DNA from: Bdellovibrio bacteriovorus str. Tiberius
Lineage (GTDB): Bacteria; Bdellovibrionota; Bdellovibrionia; Bdellovibrionales; Bdellovibrionaceae
DNA length: 64,000 nucleotides
Direction: 5' to 3'
NCBI RefSeq assembly: GCF_000317895.1
Contig: NC_019567.1
Location: 2,480,001 to 2,544,000 of the forward strand
Shown here piece after piece: positions 8,834 to 54,259 of this stretch. The position numbers and the translations under genes are program-made. The stretch's first letter is position 1. Each line of letters opens with the position of its first letter. The notes under the pieces were generated by a model. The model ran no database searches, was not told where the DNA came from, and saw only the letters and a program-made list of their open reading frames with translations.

Positions 8834-8861
8834 AAAAAGGCCGGGAAACCGGCCTTTTTTT
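8834..8861. terminator. bidirectional intrinsic terminator
   Basis: Perfect 11-bp stem AAAAAGGCCGG / CCGGCCTTTTT with a GAAA tetraloop, placed between convergent genes. Confidence 0.95.
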
Positions 8862-9507
8862 ATGCGATTTTTTTGATCAGGTAATTCAGAGTGTCCTGAT
8901 CCTGCTTCTGGTCCTTCCAGTGCTCGTGCGCCTTCAGGAAGATCTGCACCAGCTGCGGATCGAACTGCGTGCCCGAGCAACGTTTCAGTTCTTCGTACAC
9001 CACTTCCATCGGCAGACCTTTGCGGTATGCGCGGGTTTCAGACATGGCATCACAGGTGTCAACCACCAGGATAATACGCGCAATCAGCGGAATCTCGTCG
9101 CCATTCTTTTTGTCCGGATAACCACGACCATCGACACGTTCGTGATGTCCGCGAATGCCCGGCAGAATCTCGGCAAAGAAATCATGGGTCGCCAACGGCT
9201 TGATGATCTCTTCACTCAGCACCGGATGGCACTTCATCAGTTCATATTCCTGATCAGTCAGTTTACCCGGCTTGGCGATGATCTCTTGAGGCACACCGAT
9301 TTTGCCAATATCGTGGAAAAGGCCGGCAAATTCAGCCAGCTTCTGCTGATACTCATTCAAGCCTGCATCGCGCGCCAGTTTACGAGACATCTCCCCGACA
9401 CGGCAGCAATGGGCATACGTCAAAGGGTCTACGACCTTCAATGACTGCATCAGCGCCTGGGCGGCATCGTAAGCCCAAGTTGGAATGTTTCCCCAGGAAG
9501 AAGACAT
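8860..9507 (-). CDS. HD-GYP domain protein, probable c-di-GMP phosphodiesterase
   Basis: A 215-residue stand-alone HD-GYP domain. The metal-binding HD is in FHDIGKIG (His65-Asp66) and the HHERVDGRGYP box (121-131) is intact including the GYP motif, so cleavage of c-di-GMP is expected. There is no receiver or PAS domain; the first 25 residues are a short extension. A GGGAG Shine-Dalgarno lies four bases before the ATG. The gene is divergent from a small outer-membrane protein gene. In Bdellovibrio c-di-GMP governs the predatory life cycle (established), so this enzyme is probably a life-cycle regulator (inference). Confidence 0.93.
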   Translation of the reverse strand: MSSSWGNIPTWAYDAAQALMQSLKVVDPLTYAHCCRVGEMSRKLARDAGLNEYQQKLAEFAGLFHDIGKIGVPQEIIAKPGKLTDQEYELMKCHPVLSEEIIKPLATHDFFAEILPGIRGHHERVDGRGYPDKKNGDEIPLIARIILVVDTCDAMSETRAYRKGLPMEVVYEELKRCSGTQFDPQLVQIFLKAHEHWKDQKQDQDTLNYLIKKIA

Positions 9508-9678: not shown

Positions 9679-10341
9679 ATGAAAAAGTGCTTTCTTTTGA
9701 TCCTGTTGCTGGCCTTCTCCAGCTCCGCCTTTGCGCAAAAAATCAAAGTACGCAAAGTGAAAGGCAGCCAGGCCATTATTGACTTCTCTGGCGGCAGCCT
9801 GGCCCCGGGACAGGTCTATGAGCTGGCACCGGATGAATTCGGCGACACCACCATGAGCCAGTCCATGCGCCGCTACCTGATCGCTGTTTCCTTTGATCTG
9901 ACCAACACAAAGTCTGATGCCGCAGGCGCATCTAACGAAACAGATATTGCAATCGCGGGCCGTTTTGGCTGGAACTATGCAACCTATGAGTTCGGTCCTT
10001 TGGCGTCCTATGCAGCCGACGCCACCGGCAGCCTGACCAGCACACTGTTCAAGTTCGGCGGCTGGGCTGATTACAACATGATCGCCAATACACCGGGTGA
10101 AATCTTCATCTATGGTTTGGGTGGTTTGTTTGATATCGGTCAGCTGGATAACGGTGCCGGTTCAAAACGCGACATCATGGAATTCTTCGCAGGTCCGTTT
10201 GTGAAGTGGTTCCCGACGGGCAGCAATGTCGGTTTCCGTCTTGATGGTGGATACGTTTATCAAAAACAATCCGGCGGAGTTGCCTCTGACAACGTGGTGT
10301 CAGGCATTGCGATGCAAGCAGGCTTGATGGGCTATTTCTAA
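9679..10341 (+). CDS. small outer-membrane beta-barrel protein
   Basis: A 220-residue exported protein: lysine-rich start, hydrophobic core and signal-peptidase site after SSAFA. The mature part contains alternating strands (YLIAVSFDL, GRFGWNYATYEFG, GLGGLF, GGYVYQK) and ends in LMGYF, a typical barrel C-terminus with terminal Phe. It resembles 8-stranded OmpA/OmpW-size barrels, but no specific family is recognised. It converges with the next gene, their stop codons overlapping by four bases. Confidence 0.8.
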   Translation: MKKCFLLILLLAFSSSAFAQKIKVRKVKGSQAIIDFSGGSLAPGQVYELAPDEFGDTTMSQSMRRYLIAVSFDLTNTKSDAAGASNETDIAIAGRFGWNYATYEFGPLASYAADATGSLTSTLFKFGGWADYNMIANTPGEIFIYGLGGLFDIGQLDNGAGSKRDIMEFFAGPFVKWFPTGSNVGFRLDGGYVYQKQSGGVASDNVVSGIAMQAGLMGYF

Positions 10342-10973
10342 GTCTTTTGCGGGCGCACCCGGTTGGCCACCAGGAACCCCAGAATTCGGCCCTCTCTGTG
10401 CAGGGCCGAACCAAACTTCGGCTGAACCATAAAATGCCGTTTTTCCGCTGAAACACTTTCCCACACATCGTGTTCGGGCATATCAAATACCAAAGTTCCC
10501 GGCGTTCTGCCCTGCAGGGTTTGCAGACACATCGAAAAAAGTTTTTCCGTCAATCCAGGATTCCGTCCGAACAGCTTCCACCACTCGATACAATAAAGTT
10601 CTTCCACGGTATAACTGCTCAGCTCAAAGAATCTGAGATTGCGAAAGACCTGAAATCCTTCCTCAGTATACACCTCGACACAATCCCCGTTTTCCACGCC
10701 GATAAAGAAATCCGATGAAGGTGAAAGCCCCCAGCGTTCAAGAGCTTTTCGACAGAAGCGTTCAGAATCGCGCAGTGAGATATGCTCTTTCTGTGCGCCC
10801 TCGCAGATGTCCACGTAGTCCCGCAGGGTTTTAAAGGCCCGCTCCTTCTGCGCAGGCTCGAGCGAGTTGAAACTTGCCAGAGCCTCACTGCGGTAGGGCT
10901 TGATGTTGACATCTTCTCGCTGCAGAGACTGGCTGAGTCTTTCACATAGAGTTTTAAAATTCGCAGAATCCAT
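10338..10973 (-). CDS. hypothetical protein, paralogue of the protein at 53561-54259
   Basis: A 211-residue soluble protein of unknown function. I chose the ATG at 10973 because GAGGA lies five bases upstream; the longer frame could only begin with a TTG at 11072 without a ribosome site. The middle region (PSSDFF, VEVYTEEGFQVFRN, SSYTVEEL, EWWKLF) aligns closely with the protein at 53561-54259, which defines a paralogous family. The EEL motif followed by a Trp-rich turn is reminiscent of a PAS-like sensor fold, but this is only an inference. There is no signal peptide. It overlaps the 3' end of the convergent barrel gene by four bases. Confidence 0.8.
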   Translation of the reverse strand: MDSANFKTLCERLSQSLQREDVNIKPYRSEALASFNSLEPAQKERAFKTLRDYVDICEGAQKEHISLRDSERFCRKALERWGLSPSSDFFIGVENGDCVEVYTEEGFQVFRNLRFFELSSYTVEELYCIEWWKLFGRNPGLTEKLFSMCLQTLQGRTPGTLVFDMPEHDVWESVSAEKRHFMVQPKFGSALHREGRILGFLVANRVRPQKT

Positions 10974-11233
10974 AAATTCCTCGGTGCAACGTAAACAGGA
11001 TATAGCTTTCCTGATTTCAGAATACTCCTGAGCGCTCCGGAAGGGTTCACCTGAACGGGCTATCGCTGACAAAAAATGTCGGGTTCGACAGCCGAAACCG
11101 GCTTAAAGCAATACACTCCTTACCGACACGGCATCAGACTTGCTGGATATTGGTGGCGGAACTTTGCAATTTTTTAACTGGATAGCTGAATAAATCCGCG
11201 ATTTAAAAAGGCCCCTAACAAAGGATCACTCAA

Positions 11234-31850: not shown

Positions 31851-33128
31851 TTAAAGGCCGAAGCCGCATTTTCTTTTAAGATATGTATCGAAATCCGAAT
31901 CGGAGAAGTATTTGAAGTGCACGGGAGAGTTCTGAGCCTGATTCGGCCACAGATCGCGCACAGGGACTTTGCAGGATTTGCCTTGTTTGGTCACCGTCGC
32001 CGTGCCGTTTGCCAGCAGACGTGGTTCTTCACCTCGACGATCGACCCGGACCATGACGCCGTTACCGCGGTAAGAAACCTTGGCAGGCGCCAGAATTTTG
32101 CCTCCGCCAGTCATGGGACCGTCTTCAGAAAAGGCACCCCCGATGACTTCACGGGTTTGAGCATTGTAGGTCACCGTTTCCCCAGTGGGCAGGGTCACGA
32201 TCTGACGATTTCCTTCCACACGAATATGCGGCAGGGTTTTACGCGGGAACAGCATGATGTAACTTTCCTGCGTGTGACTGACCGTCGAATTTGGAGAATC
32301 ACTGATACTGATTCCAATATCCTGACGAGCCCCTGCTTCGTATTCGAAAGACCATTCACGAATGCGGTAGTCACCCTTGGAAACAACTTTGTTGGGACCC
32401 ATATTTCGAAGTTTGAATTTCCCCTCGGAACTGTCCCCTTCAAAAACACAACTGTCATAAGTACCCACGGTGCGACAACGAGTCGGACGAATCCCAAACG
32501 GATTCACCGTGCGAGTCGGAGAACGCAACACCGGCGCATCCGAAGAAGCCCTCGGCGCAAAAGTGCTGACAACTTTCGCAGAATCATTCGGCACCGTATC
32601 GCGGGCTTGTTCTTTGACCACTTCACAGCCATCACAAGGCTTGGTCTCTTGAACTTTTTTATTGGCATCACGAATCTGCTGATTCAGCTCTTGAACAGCC
32701 TGTTTTTCTTCGGCCTTTTCAGCCGCCGCAGGAACACGCAAAGCCTCAGTCTTGCGTGTAGTCTCGACCGACTTGGACTTTTCAACTTCAGCAGATGCCA
32801 AAGCTTCGCCAGCAGCCTCAGAATTTTCAAAAAGCTTCATCCCGGGATTTGCTGGTTTGTAGTATACCCAAACCTTCTCTCCCTTATGCTTGCCGGAAAG
32901 CACTTCCACCTTCAGGCCATAATTACCTGAACCAAACTGTTTTGTTTCTTCAATTTTCCCCCGCGTCCCCGGAGGCATGACAAACTTGACGTTACGAGTG
33001 GATTTCAAAAAGTTAGCCGAGTAACGAGCATTAAAGTAGCCTTCGAGTTCAACAACCCCGCCACTGCTCACACCCAAAATAAGAGGAATCAGCAGGAAAA
33101 CTCCCCACCGTTTCATAGCCAACTTCAT
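31851..33128 (-). CDS. secreted protein with SH3-like N-terminal region
   Basis: A 425-residue exported protein with a hydrophobic leader. Residues about 28-92 (FLKSTRNVKFVMPPGTRGKI, ending VWVYYKPANPG) look like a bacterial SH3-type domain. A charged Ala/Glu/Lys-rich segment (about 100-165) follows, likely coiled coil, then a Cys pair (CDGC) and a beta-rich C-terminal domain with a cysteine near the end (KRKCGFGL). SH3b domains often bind peptidoglycan, so a periplasmic role is possible. No known family for the whole protein. Confidence 0.75.
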   Translation of the reverse strand: MKLAMKRWGVFLLIPLILGVSSGGVVELEGYFNARYSANFLKSTRNVKFVMPPGTRGKIEETKQFGSGNYGLKVEVLSGKHKGEKVWVYYKPANPGMKLFENSEAAGEALASAEVEKSKSVETTRKTEALRVPAAAEKAEEKQAVQELNQQIRDANKKVQETKPCDGCEVVKEQARDTVPNDSAKVVSTFAPRASSDAPVLRSPTRTVNPFGIRPTRCRTVGTYDSCVFEGDSSEGKFKLRNMGPNKVVSKGDYRIREWSFEYEAGARQDIGISISDSPNSTVSHTQESYIMLFPRKTLPHIRVEGNRQIVTLPTGETVTYNAQTREVIGGAFSEDGPMTGGGKILAPAKVSYRGNGVMVRVDRRGEEPRLLANGTATVTKQGKSCKVPVRDLWPNQAQNSPVHFKYFSDSDFDTYLKRKCGFGL

Positions 33129-33165
33129 AAAGAGTTTATCGGCCGTTCCAATTCAAGACTTAACA

Positions 33166-52068: not shown

Positions 52069-52716
52069 TTAAGCGGCGCTGCGCCCCCGGGCCCGGGATA
52101 TTTCACGACACTCATTCAGCATCTGGTCATAATAGCTCAAAGTCTGCCGCAGGTTCTGCATCACCACCACCTGGTCATCCGGCGACAGCGTGGCAATCTT
52201 ATTCAGAGCCTCTTCGGTATGCCCCACGTCCTCTTCCGCATGCACGCGGATAAAGTGCGCGGCCTTCGGGCCCCAGGCTTTTTCAATGCGTTTGTTCATG
52301 TAATCACCAAAGTGCGCGGCCAGTGCTTCCAGCCCCAGAATGTATCCAAAGAAGGCCATCGGTGAATGGTGTTCAATATAATAGTACTGCGTCTGATAAA
52401 GCGCGCAGGTGCCCGGCATTTCCGGCCACTCGTCCATCTTGCTGCCCAGGGTTTTCAGATCATTCACCAGCAACTTGTCGTGGCCTTTTTCTTCCGCACA
52501 ATGAGCCAGGAACCGGTTGTGGAACTCGGGCGCCCCAAACGGAGTGCGCGCCCCGGCCATGGCCAGCAGGCGTGTTGTGTGCCGGGCAAAATAGAAGGTC
52601 TGTGACACCCAGGCGGAATAGGCGTTTTTATCCTCCCACGGGAAAGCTTCGATCTGTTTTTTGGAGAAATTCAAAAGGGTCATCAGTTCATCGTTAACGT
52701 TCTTATTGTTAGGCAT
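52069..52716 (-). CDS. heme-oxygenase-like (HDO/TenA/PqqC fold) metalloenzyme
   Basis: A 215-residue all-helical protein. Putative metal ligands are in HCAEEKGHD (Glu75/76, His79), Glu130 (GYILGLEAL) and HAEEDVGH (His159, Asp163, His166), the arrangement seen in heme-oxygenase-like diiron oxidases and oxygenases. It is 30 bases downstream of an acyltransferase-like gene, so the pair is probably cotranscribed. A small biosynthetic reaction such as oxidation of an acylated amino compound is possible. The substrate is unknown. Confidence 0.78.
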   Translation of the reverse strand: MPNNKNVNDELMTLLNFSKKQIEAFPWEDKNAYSAWVSQTFYFARHTTRLLAMAGARTPFGAPEFHNRFLAHCAEEKGHDKLLVNDLKTLGSKMDEWPEMPGTCALYQTQYYYIEHHSPMAFFGYILGLEALAAHFGDYMNKRIEKAWGPKAAHFIRVHAEEDVGHTEEALNKIATLSPDDQVVVMQNLRQTLSYYDQMLNECREISRARGRSAA

Positions 52717-52746
52717 TTGTCTCTCTTTTCAGGTTTTATAAAACCA

Positions 52747-53427
52747 TTAAGCTGCAATTTTCAGATTGTTTCTGCGAACTTCGCGCAGACAAGTCACGTG
52801 GGATTTTTTATCGGCCCACAGGCTTTCCACCAGCGCGTTGGATTTCGGATCAGGCAGAGGCACAACCTCCCCTTTTGCCGTCATCAGGATTTCGCATTCA
52901 TAGTTCATCTTCATCACACTGCCAAAATAAGCGGTTCCGCTTTTTTCAGCCTTGCGCCGCACATGCAGATCCTTGCGGGCCGTGCCCACCCAGCAGTCCC
53001 ATGGCGAAGACTCCATCACCTTGCTTCCCAGCGCGATGATGATTTCAGCCCAGTTCACTTCAGCACTGCGTGACCGGTATTCGGGAATCACCGTCAAATA
53101 TTCCATGCTCATCAGGGTATTGATGCCGTGGCTTTTGAATTTATCAATGATCGCCTGATCAAAGGCTTTCATATAGTGGTGATCACGAAGGGCGTCCGAG
53201 CGCAGATCAAAAGCGCTGTACAAATGGAAACCGAAAACTTTTCCGTTATCGGTCAGGCAGACGACAATGTCGTTGCGATGAAAATCATCCGGGTTCAAAG
53301 GTTCGCCGACTTTGCCCAGCACCTCTGAATAGACCCGCCTCCATACCTCGTAGACGTCGTTGCTTAATTTTACTGTTTCGGGATTCAACTCGCGTGGATT
53401 GAAAAGGTGATACTGAAACTTACCCAT
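52747..53427 (-). CDS. GNAT-like N-acyltransferase
   Basis: A 226-residue protein of GNAT-type fold. The segment MEYLTVIPEYRSRSAEVNWAE (two stretches) looks like the acyl-CoA/ACP-binding strand and P-loop of N-acyl amino acid synthase or autoinducer-synthase-like GNATs, with DNGKVFGFHLYS as the preceding strand. AAGGAG lies before the ATG. It heads a two-gene unit with the heme-oxygenase-like enzyme. The exact GNAT subfamily and substrate need a profile search. Confidence 0.72.
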   Translation of the reverse strand: MGKFQYHLFNPRELNPETVKLSNDVYEVWRRVYSEVLGKVGEPLNPDDFHRNDIVVCLTDNGKVFGFHLYSAFDLRSDALRDHHYMKAFDQAIIDKFKSHGINTLMSMEYLTVIPEYRSRSAEVNWAEIIIALGSKVMESSPWDCWVGTARKDLHVRRKAEKSGTAYFGSVMKMNYECEILMTAKGEVVPLPDPKSNALVESLWADKKSHVTCLREVRRNNLKIAA

Positions 53428-53560
53428 ACACTCTCCTTCCGGCAGAGTGTTTCGGATGTTCCACTTGTGAACTTGATAGTGTTTACTAATTTAAGACGTT
53501 TGATTCTGAGAACAAGTGACTTGTGTGCTGTGATTCTCAAAAAATCACATTGCAAAAAAA

Positions 53561-54259
53561 TCAGTTGCGGAGCATTTCCACTTTTTCAAGAACGATCACG
53601 CAGTCAGGGCGCTTGTTTCGGTACACTGGAGCCATTCTGCGGATTTCGCAGTTCATCGTCAAACGCTCCGCCGAACGCGCTTCGCGCAGTTGGTGAACCG
53701 GAACATCCGGTACAAATGTACCATCCACTTCGCCGTTGAACACCAGGTTGCAGGCATCAATAATCTTCTGAGTGATGGTTTCTTCTCTTTCAAACAGGGA
53801 CCACCACTCGTAGGCGTTCAGTTCTTCAAGAGTATAAGAACAGCAGTCAAAGAAATTGAAATTACGGAACAGTTGAACGTGCTCTTTGGAATAGATCTCA
53901 ATGATATCTTCGTTCTGGATATGGCTGAACAAATCAGAACTTGGCACCAACCCCAGACGACGGAACGCCTTCCATGTGAAGGACAGACTGTCGTTGATTT
54001 TGTAGCCTTCAGCCAGCTGGGAATGACACAGCTCCTGATAGAAGCGCACTTTTTCAACGGCGTCTCTTTTTTTATCCAGAGGCAAACGGGAAAAATACGG
54101 AAGACCCGGAACATACGGGCGCACGGTTTTACCTTCAGCTTTCAGCATCAGGGAAATATCCGTGGTGATCGTCTTGAACTCTTCGTTCAGAACTTCGTGT
54201 TCATTGTCTCTAACGTAAATCTCTGGGTACATGATATCCTCGGTCGGCTCTTCAAACAT
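53561..54259 (-). CDS. hypothetical protein, paralogue of the protein at 10338-10973
   Basis: A 232-residue soluble protein without signal peptide. Its central part (GLVPSSDLF, EIYSKEHVQLFRNFNFF, CCSYTLEELNAYEWWSLF) aligns with the protein at 10338-10973 (GLSPSSDFF, VEVYTEEGFQVFRNLRFF, SSYTVEELYCIEWWKLF). The EEL and Trp-rich block suggest a PAS-like or other sensory fold. AGGA lies nine bases before the ATG. The gene is monocistronic. Function unknown; one of at least two family members in the genome. Confidence 0.8.
   Translation of the reverse strand: MFEEPTEDIMYPEIYVRDNEHEVLNEEFKTITTDISLMLKAEGKTVRPYVPGLPYFSRLPLDKKRDAVEKVRFYQELCHSQLAEGYKINDSLSFTWKAFRRLGLVPSSDLFSHIQNEDIIEIYSKEHVQLFRNFNFFDCCSYTLEELNAYEWWSLFEREETITQKIIDACNLVFNGEVDGTFVPDVPVHQLREARSAERLTMNCEIRRMAPVYRNKRPDCVIVLEKVEMLRN

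Follow-up and report, generated by a model that had tools for sequence, protein, structure and literature searches.

Organization of the locus

The window analysed here, a stretch of 64,000 nucleotides, is part of the complete genome of Bdellovibrio bacteriovorus str. Tiberius (3,988,594 bases). On its minus strand lie three genes in the order A, B and C, separated by 133 bp (A to B) and 30 bp (B to C), respectively, together with a putative promoter and two C-terminal tails that will be described below (Table 1). A first-pass annotation of this DNA had drawn attention to two same-strand genes 30 bases apart within positions 52069-53427, and minus-strand open reading frames corresponding to B and C were indeed found there. 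The bounds of that locus were nevertheless too narrow, as they left out the linked gene A; the tails and the promoter had also gone unmentioned. B and C are not chance open reading frames, since both recur, linked, in dozens of other genomes.

Table 1. Features of the A-B-C locus and of a second A-type gene, in window coordinates
Feature	Position	Strand	Description
Gene A	53561..54259	(-)	232 aa, or 223 aa from the conserved Met10 (54232); PAS-like partner, likely sensor
FliA (sigma-28)-type promoter	53450..53476	(-)	TCAAG-N16-CCGAAA; directly before the ribosome-binding site of B
Gene B	52747..53427	(-)	226 aa; GNAT fold, probably of the LuxI/FeeM (N-acyl synthase) type; proposed first enzyme
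Tail of B	52750..52764	(-)	-LKIAA; ClpX-degron-like, matches C-motif 1/2 (PMC9775585)
Gene C	52069..52716	(-)	215 aa; predicted heme-oxygenase-like dimetal oxidase (HDO); proposed second enzyme
Tail of C	52072..52086	(-)	-GRSAA; ClpX-degron-like, matches C-motif 1/2 (PMC9775585)
Second A-type (PAS-like) gene	10338..11072	(-)	Solitary; 36% identity to the A protein of the module; neighbours unrelated to B/C

Protein C carries the complete ligand set of an HDO

C had been proposed to be an HDO on account of two metal-ligand motifs, HCAEEKGHD and HAEEDVGH, both of which are present in the protein, and the assignment holds. The protein matches PF14518 (Haem_oxygenas_2) with an E-value of 1.3e-16, over the curated cut-off, and a profile of 26 homologues retrieved from the solved structures both 3dde (E 3e-18) and, at E 1e-7, the diiron acetylenase MboA. 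The 3-His/3-carboxylate ligands of C (E76, H79, E130, H159, D163 and H166) do not vary among the 26 sequences and align, over three core helices, with the residues that hold the irons of MboA, namely Glu86, His89, Glu143, His172, Asp176 and His181 (PMC13185094). Similarly, the H-x3-D-x2-H spacing of C equals that of the AetD ligands H172/E176/H179 (PMC10654658), and the 3H/3C set as such is that of the majority of HDOs (PMC13108848). H72, E75 and D86 are likewise invariant among the homologues.

By these sequence criteria, C is a member of the HDO superfamily, for which metal binding and O2-dependent oxidation are predicted. It shares the full 3H/3C ligand set and its spacing with MboA, AetD, UndA and CADD, but differs from them in being partnered with a putative acyl synthase and in having the additional invariant H72 and E75, which lie on the same helix.

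Fold and family of protein B

The first-pass annotation had labelled B a GNAT, a label to which Pfam is blind. The window protein matched no Pfam or NCBIfam family, and the Pfam search of 50 members gave the same outcome: a GNAT family was matched by none of 25 members, and by one among the 50 at an E-value of 0.12. Both the window protein and the 50 members stayed below the curated cut-off of the FeeM family PF21926 and lacked a match to Autoind_synth (the LuxI family, PF00765), and a B profile compared with PDB sequences yielded nothing significant.

Profile-profile and structure comparisons, on the other hand, support a fold of the LuxI/FeeM type. An AF2 model of B, built from a shallow alignment of two sequences (the window protein and L002) and therefore of low confidence (mean pLDDT 49), has its strands and helices in GNAT order. 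Among 350,542 PDB chains searched by Foldseek, the top matches to this model were BjaI, FeeM and LasI, and structural realignment by VIA placed RpaI first (185 residues, Z 9.6); BjaI, FeeM and MesI were likewise in the top rows amid other GNATs. Both lists consist of GNATs nearly throughout, human NatF, dopamine N-acetyltransferase and aminoglycoside acetyltransferase following close behind. In hhalign, a 50-sequence B profile reached a probability of 74.8% against divergent FeeM proteins of the same phylum and 0.15% against an unrelated PAS profile, while the match to canonical FeeM was weak (10.9%). Since a Z-score near 8 is only moderately informative, we regard the GNAT fold of B as firm at the level of these models and profiles, and its placement in the LuxI/FeeM (acyl-synthase) branch as probable.

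B resembles the FeeM N-acyl amino acid synthases (PF21926; 2g0b) in fold and size, FeeM being a top structural match, but lacks a PF21926 match and a PilZ domain and is paired with an HDO. With the LuxI-type AHL synthases (BjaI, RpaI, MesI and LasI) it shares fold, length and a conserved Glu on the central strand (E109, in 38 of 50 sequences), whereas it has neither an Autoind_synth match nor a LuxR neighbour. Long FeeM proteins were also considered as carrying an HDO in their C-terminal half, but this was ruled out, as that part was PilZ wherever anything was recognised. A search for B on plasmids gave a single weak match, in Bdellovibrio itself. A second B gene of this genome, solitary and without an adjoining C (G000:C1:3355492-3356133; L094:5493-6227), encodes a protein that also ends in alanines (-AEAAA).

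B and C form a phylum-wide module

The first-pass annotation had suggested conservation of the gene pair as a check. Among 60 related genomes, matches were found to B in 43, to C in 49 and to A in 50. B adjoined C at 45 loci in this survey, with A alongside at 36 of the 45, and a profile survey across 241 genomes from the phylum placed B next to C at 50 loci, which were further or re-found ones, so that the two surveys overlap and their counts are not additive. The order and orientation of B and C vary widely between loci while the linkage stays, and one congeneric genome encodes the two as a single fused protein of 449 aa (L160:986-2335). Across the 45 linked loci, distances of B and C were correlated (r 0.78, reached in 0 of 2000 permutations), a correlation to which shared ancestry contributes. 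B and C are thus kept together, and the pair is a phylum-wide module. The novelty that had been expected for this particular bacterium therefore dissolves into a trait widespread in Bdellovibrionota, and the description as a minimal two-gene module has to be amended, since the PAS-like third gene is usually present.

Comparable pairings were found in parallel: GNATs of the FeeM family, or close to it, lie beside divergent HDOs at six loci in other genomes (L162, L163, L164, L165, L167 and L175), and at L166 a FeeM-type GNAT and an HDO are 2 kb apart. At L161:1065-3377 (-), B is fused to a FAD_binding_4 oxidase domain in a protein of 770 aa. The fusions and the parallel FeeM-HDO pairs indicate that the combination of an acyl synthase with an oxidase is a recurring theme in the phylum.

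The PAS-like third gene

As a rule, gene A lies near B and C: it either precedes them on their strand or follows them in convergent orientation. At some B-C loci it is absent or located elsewhere. The genome holds six copies of the A family, i.e. that of the module and five more, one of which lies within the window (Table 1); the four remaining ones sit among unrelated genes. No significant match of A to Pfam or NCBIfam was obtained, nor did its profile retrieve anything significant from the PDB sequences. PAS_9 was matched by 4 of 54 members at a best E-value of 0.025, below the curated cut-off. In hhalign, the second half of A (residues ~123-226) matched PAS at 26.7% with the order of the PAS core (controls, 0.07-0.2%), and a model of A, built from a shallow alignment and with a pLDDT of 59, gave weak PAS-fold rows in VIA (Z 4-6). 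An Autoind_bind match of one member, also at E 0.025, was discarded, as about one such chance match is expected among 54 members. A search for relatives of A in viral contigs found none.

A thus shares with PAS sensor domains the residue order of the core, by a weak match, but differs from PAS sensors in its helical N-terminal half and in that no kinase, cyclase or DNA-binding domain was recognised. From its sequence, the protein is best called PAS-like, and its likely role would be that of a sensor.

Degron-like tails on both enzymes

Alanine was the terminal residue of 43 of 58 B proteins (74%) and of 36 of 52 C proteins (69%), 31 of the latter ending in Ala-Ala. The corresponding background was 16 of 223 neighbouring proteins at the same loci (7.2%) and 20 of 316 proteins from this genome, and a single Ala-terminal protein was present among 63 A proteins; the sequences are related, so a Fisher test on these counts overstates the significance. 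The tails of B and C follow the consensus [KR][KR]AA. In B, the last conserved Trp is followed by 11 to 43 residues up to the end, meaning that a linker of variable length, not conserved, precedes a tail that is.

Published C-motifs of ClpX comprise LAA/NAA/PAA/EAA and RRKKAI/RAKKVA/HIKKAS/HARKVA (PMC9775585), which are closely matched by endings such as -LRKVA, -NKKAA and -YRKAS. The genome encodes ClpX, and its own tmRNA tag is GNDYALAA. Canonical FeeM proteins from other genomes of the phylum (L140, L141, L143 and L144) end in -KKVA, -PKAA or -KKAG, tails of the same degron-like kind, several of these proteins having a C-terminal PilZ domain. Given the match of the tails to the ClpX C-motifs, B and C are probably short-lived, predicted ClpX substrates. 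The protein encoded at 8860-9507 of the window, which ends in -KKIA, reads by sequence as an unrelated HD-domain phosphohydrolase and was set aside. The fused B-C protein carries no degron-like tail and ends in -TPAVL.

A promoter of the attack-phase type

Attack-phase promoters of B. bacteriovorus have the form TTAAG-N16-CCGATA, which is a FliA (sigma-28) site (PMC3627812). The site upstream of B has two mismatches to this consensus and the exact spacing. The degenerate pattern TYAAG-N16-CCGAWA occurs 2 times in the 64-kb window, compared to 0.18 expected; in 928 kb of strand sequence it was found 4 times. Sites of this kind also lie ahead of B in several members of the genus, while a sigma-28-like -10 element was present in only 17 of 51 B upstream regions (2.4 expected), mostly within the genus. 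FliA is encoded in the genome, and inverted repeats upstream of B are not conserved in relatives. Judging from this site, FliA (sigma-28) probably drives transcription of the B-C operon during the attack phase.

A perfect site, TTAAG-N16-CCGATA, was also noted at 33137-33163 (-) of the window, 8 bases ahead of the first ATG in a 425-aa open reading frame (31851-33128). With the site this close to the ATG, translation may in fact begin at a codon further downstream; the reading frame is likely an attack-phase gene, going by its promoter.

A proposed pathway and its alternatives

Enzymes of the FeeM and LuxI types acylate amines, with an acyl thioester as donor. B would correspondingly draw on such a thioester (of ACP or CoA), and its acceptor amine would most likely be an amino acid; C, as a diiron or Fe/Mn HDO, would oxidise the resulting N-acyl product. 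The substrate itself is a ligand of Fe1 in five HDOs whose structures have been studied (PMC13108848), in MboA via the C-terminal carboxylate of the substrate, which makes the free carboxylate of an N-acyl amino acid a likely handle for C; desaturation, decarboxylation or C-C cleavage would be the likely chemistry. A would most likely sense the product. The enzymes would be produced in the attack phase via FliA, and with ClpX-type degrons on both of them, synthesis would stop fast once the cell leaves this phase.

We thus lean, with slightly more belief than doubt, towards B and C being an attack-phase, degron-controlled pathway to an oxidised N-acyl metabolite, probably a signal. The gene linkage, the fusion, the ligand set, the tails and the promoter site are direct observations, from which we infer the substrate (acyl donor and acceptor), the reaction of C and its product, sensing by A and signalling, the proteolysis itself and the timing. 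The pair looks like an unrecognised pathway that makes, and rapidly shuts off, a small acylated molecule in the hunting phase. A more tentative and somewhat unlikely extension is an unrecognised cell-signalling system of predatory bacteria, with B as a LuxI/FeeM-like synthase, C finishing the signal, A as a PAS-like receptor family, activity in the attack phase and removal by ClpXP. The solitary extra copies of A could then be likened to LuxR solos. In the immediate surroundings, neither an exporter nor a gene for acyl-ACP supply nor a DNA-binding receptor was identified, and no output domain is recognised in A.

The two-step pathway could also be real and lead to a structural lipid, a protective compound or a secondary metabolite rather than a signal, in which case A might regulate by sensing something else, such as the redox state. 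This would agree with N-acyl amino acids from FeeM-type enzymes, which can be lipids, with the HDOs, which serve mostly natural-product synthesis (PMC13108848), with the search for a receptor with an output domain, which found none, and with the absence or remote position of A at some loci. However, the degron-like tails on both enzymes and the phase-specific promoter type agree more with a transient compound than with a bulk lipid, and A is linked at most loci; we rate a non-signal product as rather unlikely. The tails, in turn, may be docking or substrate peptides instead of degrons, for example a shared anchor of B and C, or themselves be modified. They are common to both enzymes, and the fused protein lacks one, as expected if the tail replaced a covalent link. 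Yet a match to ClpX C-motifs 1 and 2 (LAA, KKVA and KKAS; PMC9775585), the variable-length linker in front and the occurrence of such tails on FeeM-PilZ proteins of other genomes speak against docking, which appears improbable.

Less probable still is that B is an ordinary protein or polyamine acetyltransferase and C an unrelated oxidative-stress or metal protein, the two being co-regulated and having no common substrate. B does lack a Pfam family, and the rows of NatF, dopamine N-acetyltransferase and aminoglycoside acetyltransferase are near in the structure comparisons, but the closest fold matches are acyl-signal synthases, and the B-C fusion, the linkage kept despite shuffled gene order and the parallel FeeM-HDO pairing argue for one pathway. 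Returning to the preferred reading of an oxidised N-acyl metabolite, a limited literature search returned neither a signal system of the LuxI/FeeM-plus-oxidase kind for Bdellovibrio nor any account of an acyl synthase paired with an HDO. With its phylum-wide distribution, hunting-phase promoter type and degron-like tails, the module is a concrete candidate for self-made chemistry controlling predation. It would offer the HDOs a new substrate class and is a testable case of paired-enzyme removal by ClpXP, and if A binds the product, a new signalling system would be at hand.

Other gene arrangements involving HDOs

Two further arrangements were encountered during the surveys. At L167:3619-7107 (-), a protein of 1162 aa combines PilZ, FeeM, GAF and adenylate/guanylate cyclase domains beside a divergent HDO, so that an acyl synthase is apparently coupled to second-messenger domains. 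At L168:1270-2904 and L169:993-2627, an HDO is fused behind a predicted FkbM methyltransferase in a protein of 544 aa (domains called on L168). Behind these FkbM-HDO genes lie two genes with relatives that seem to be found repeatedly beside HDOs in other genomes.
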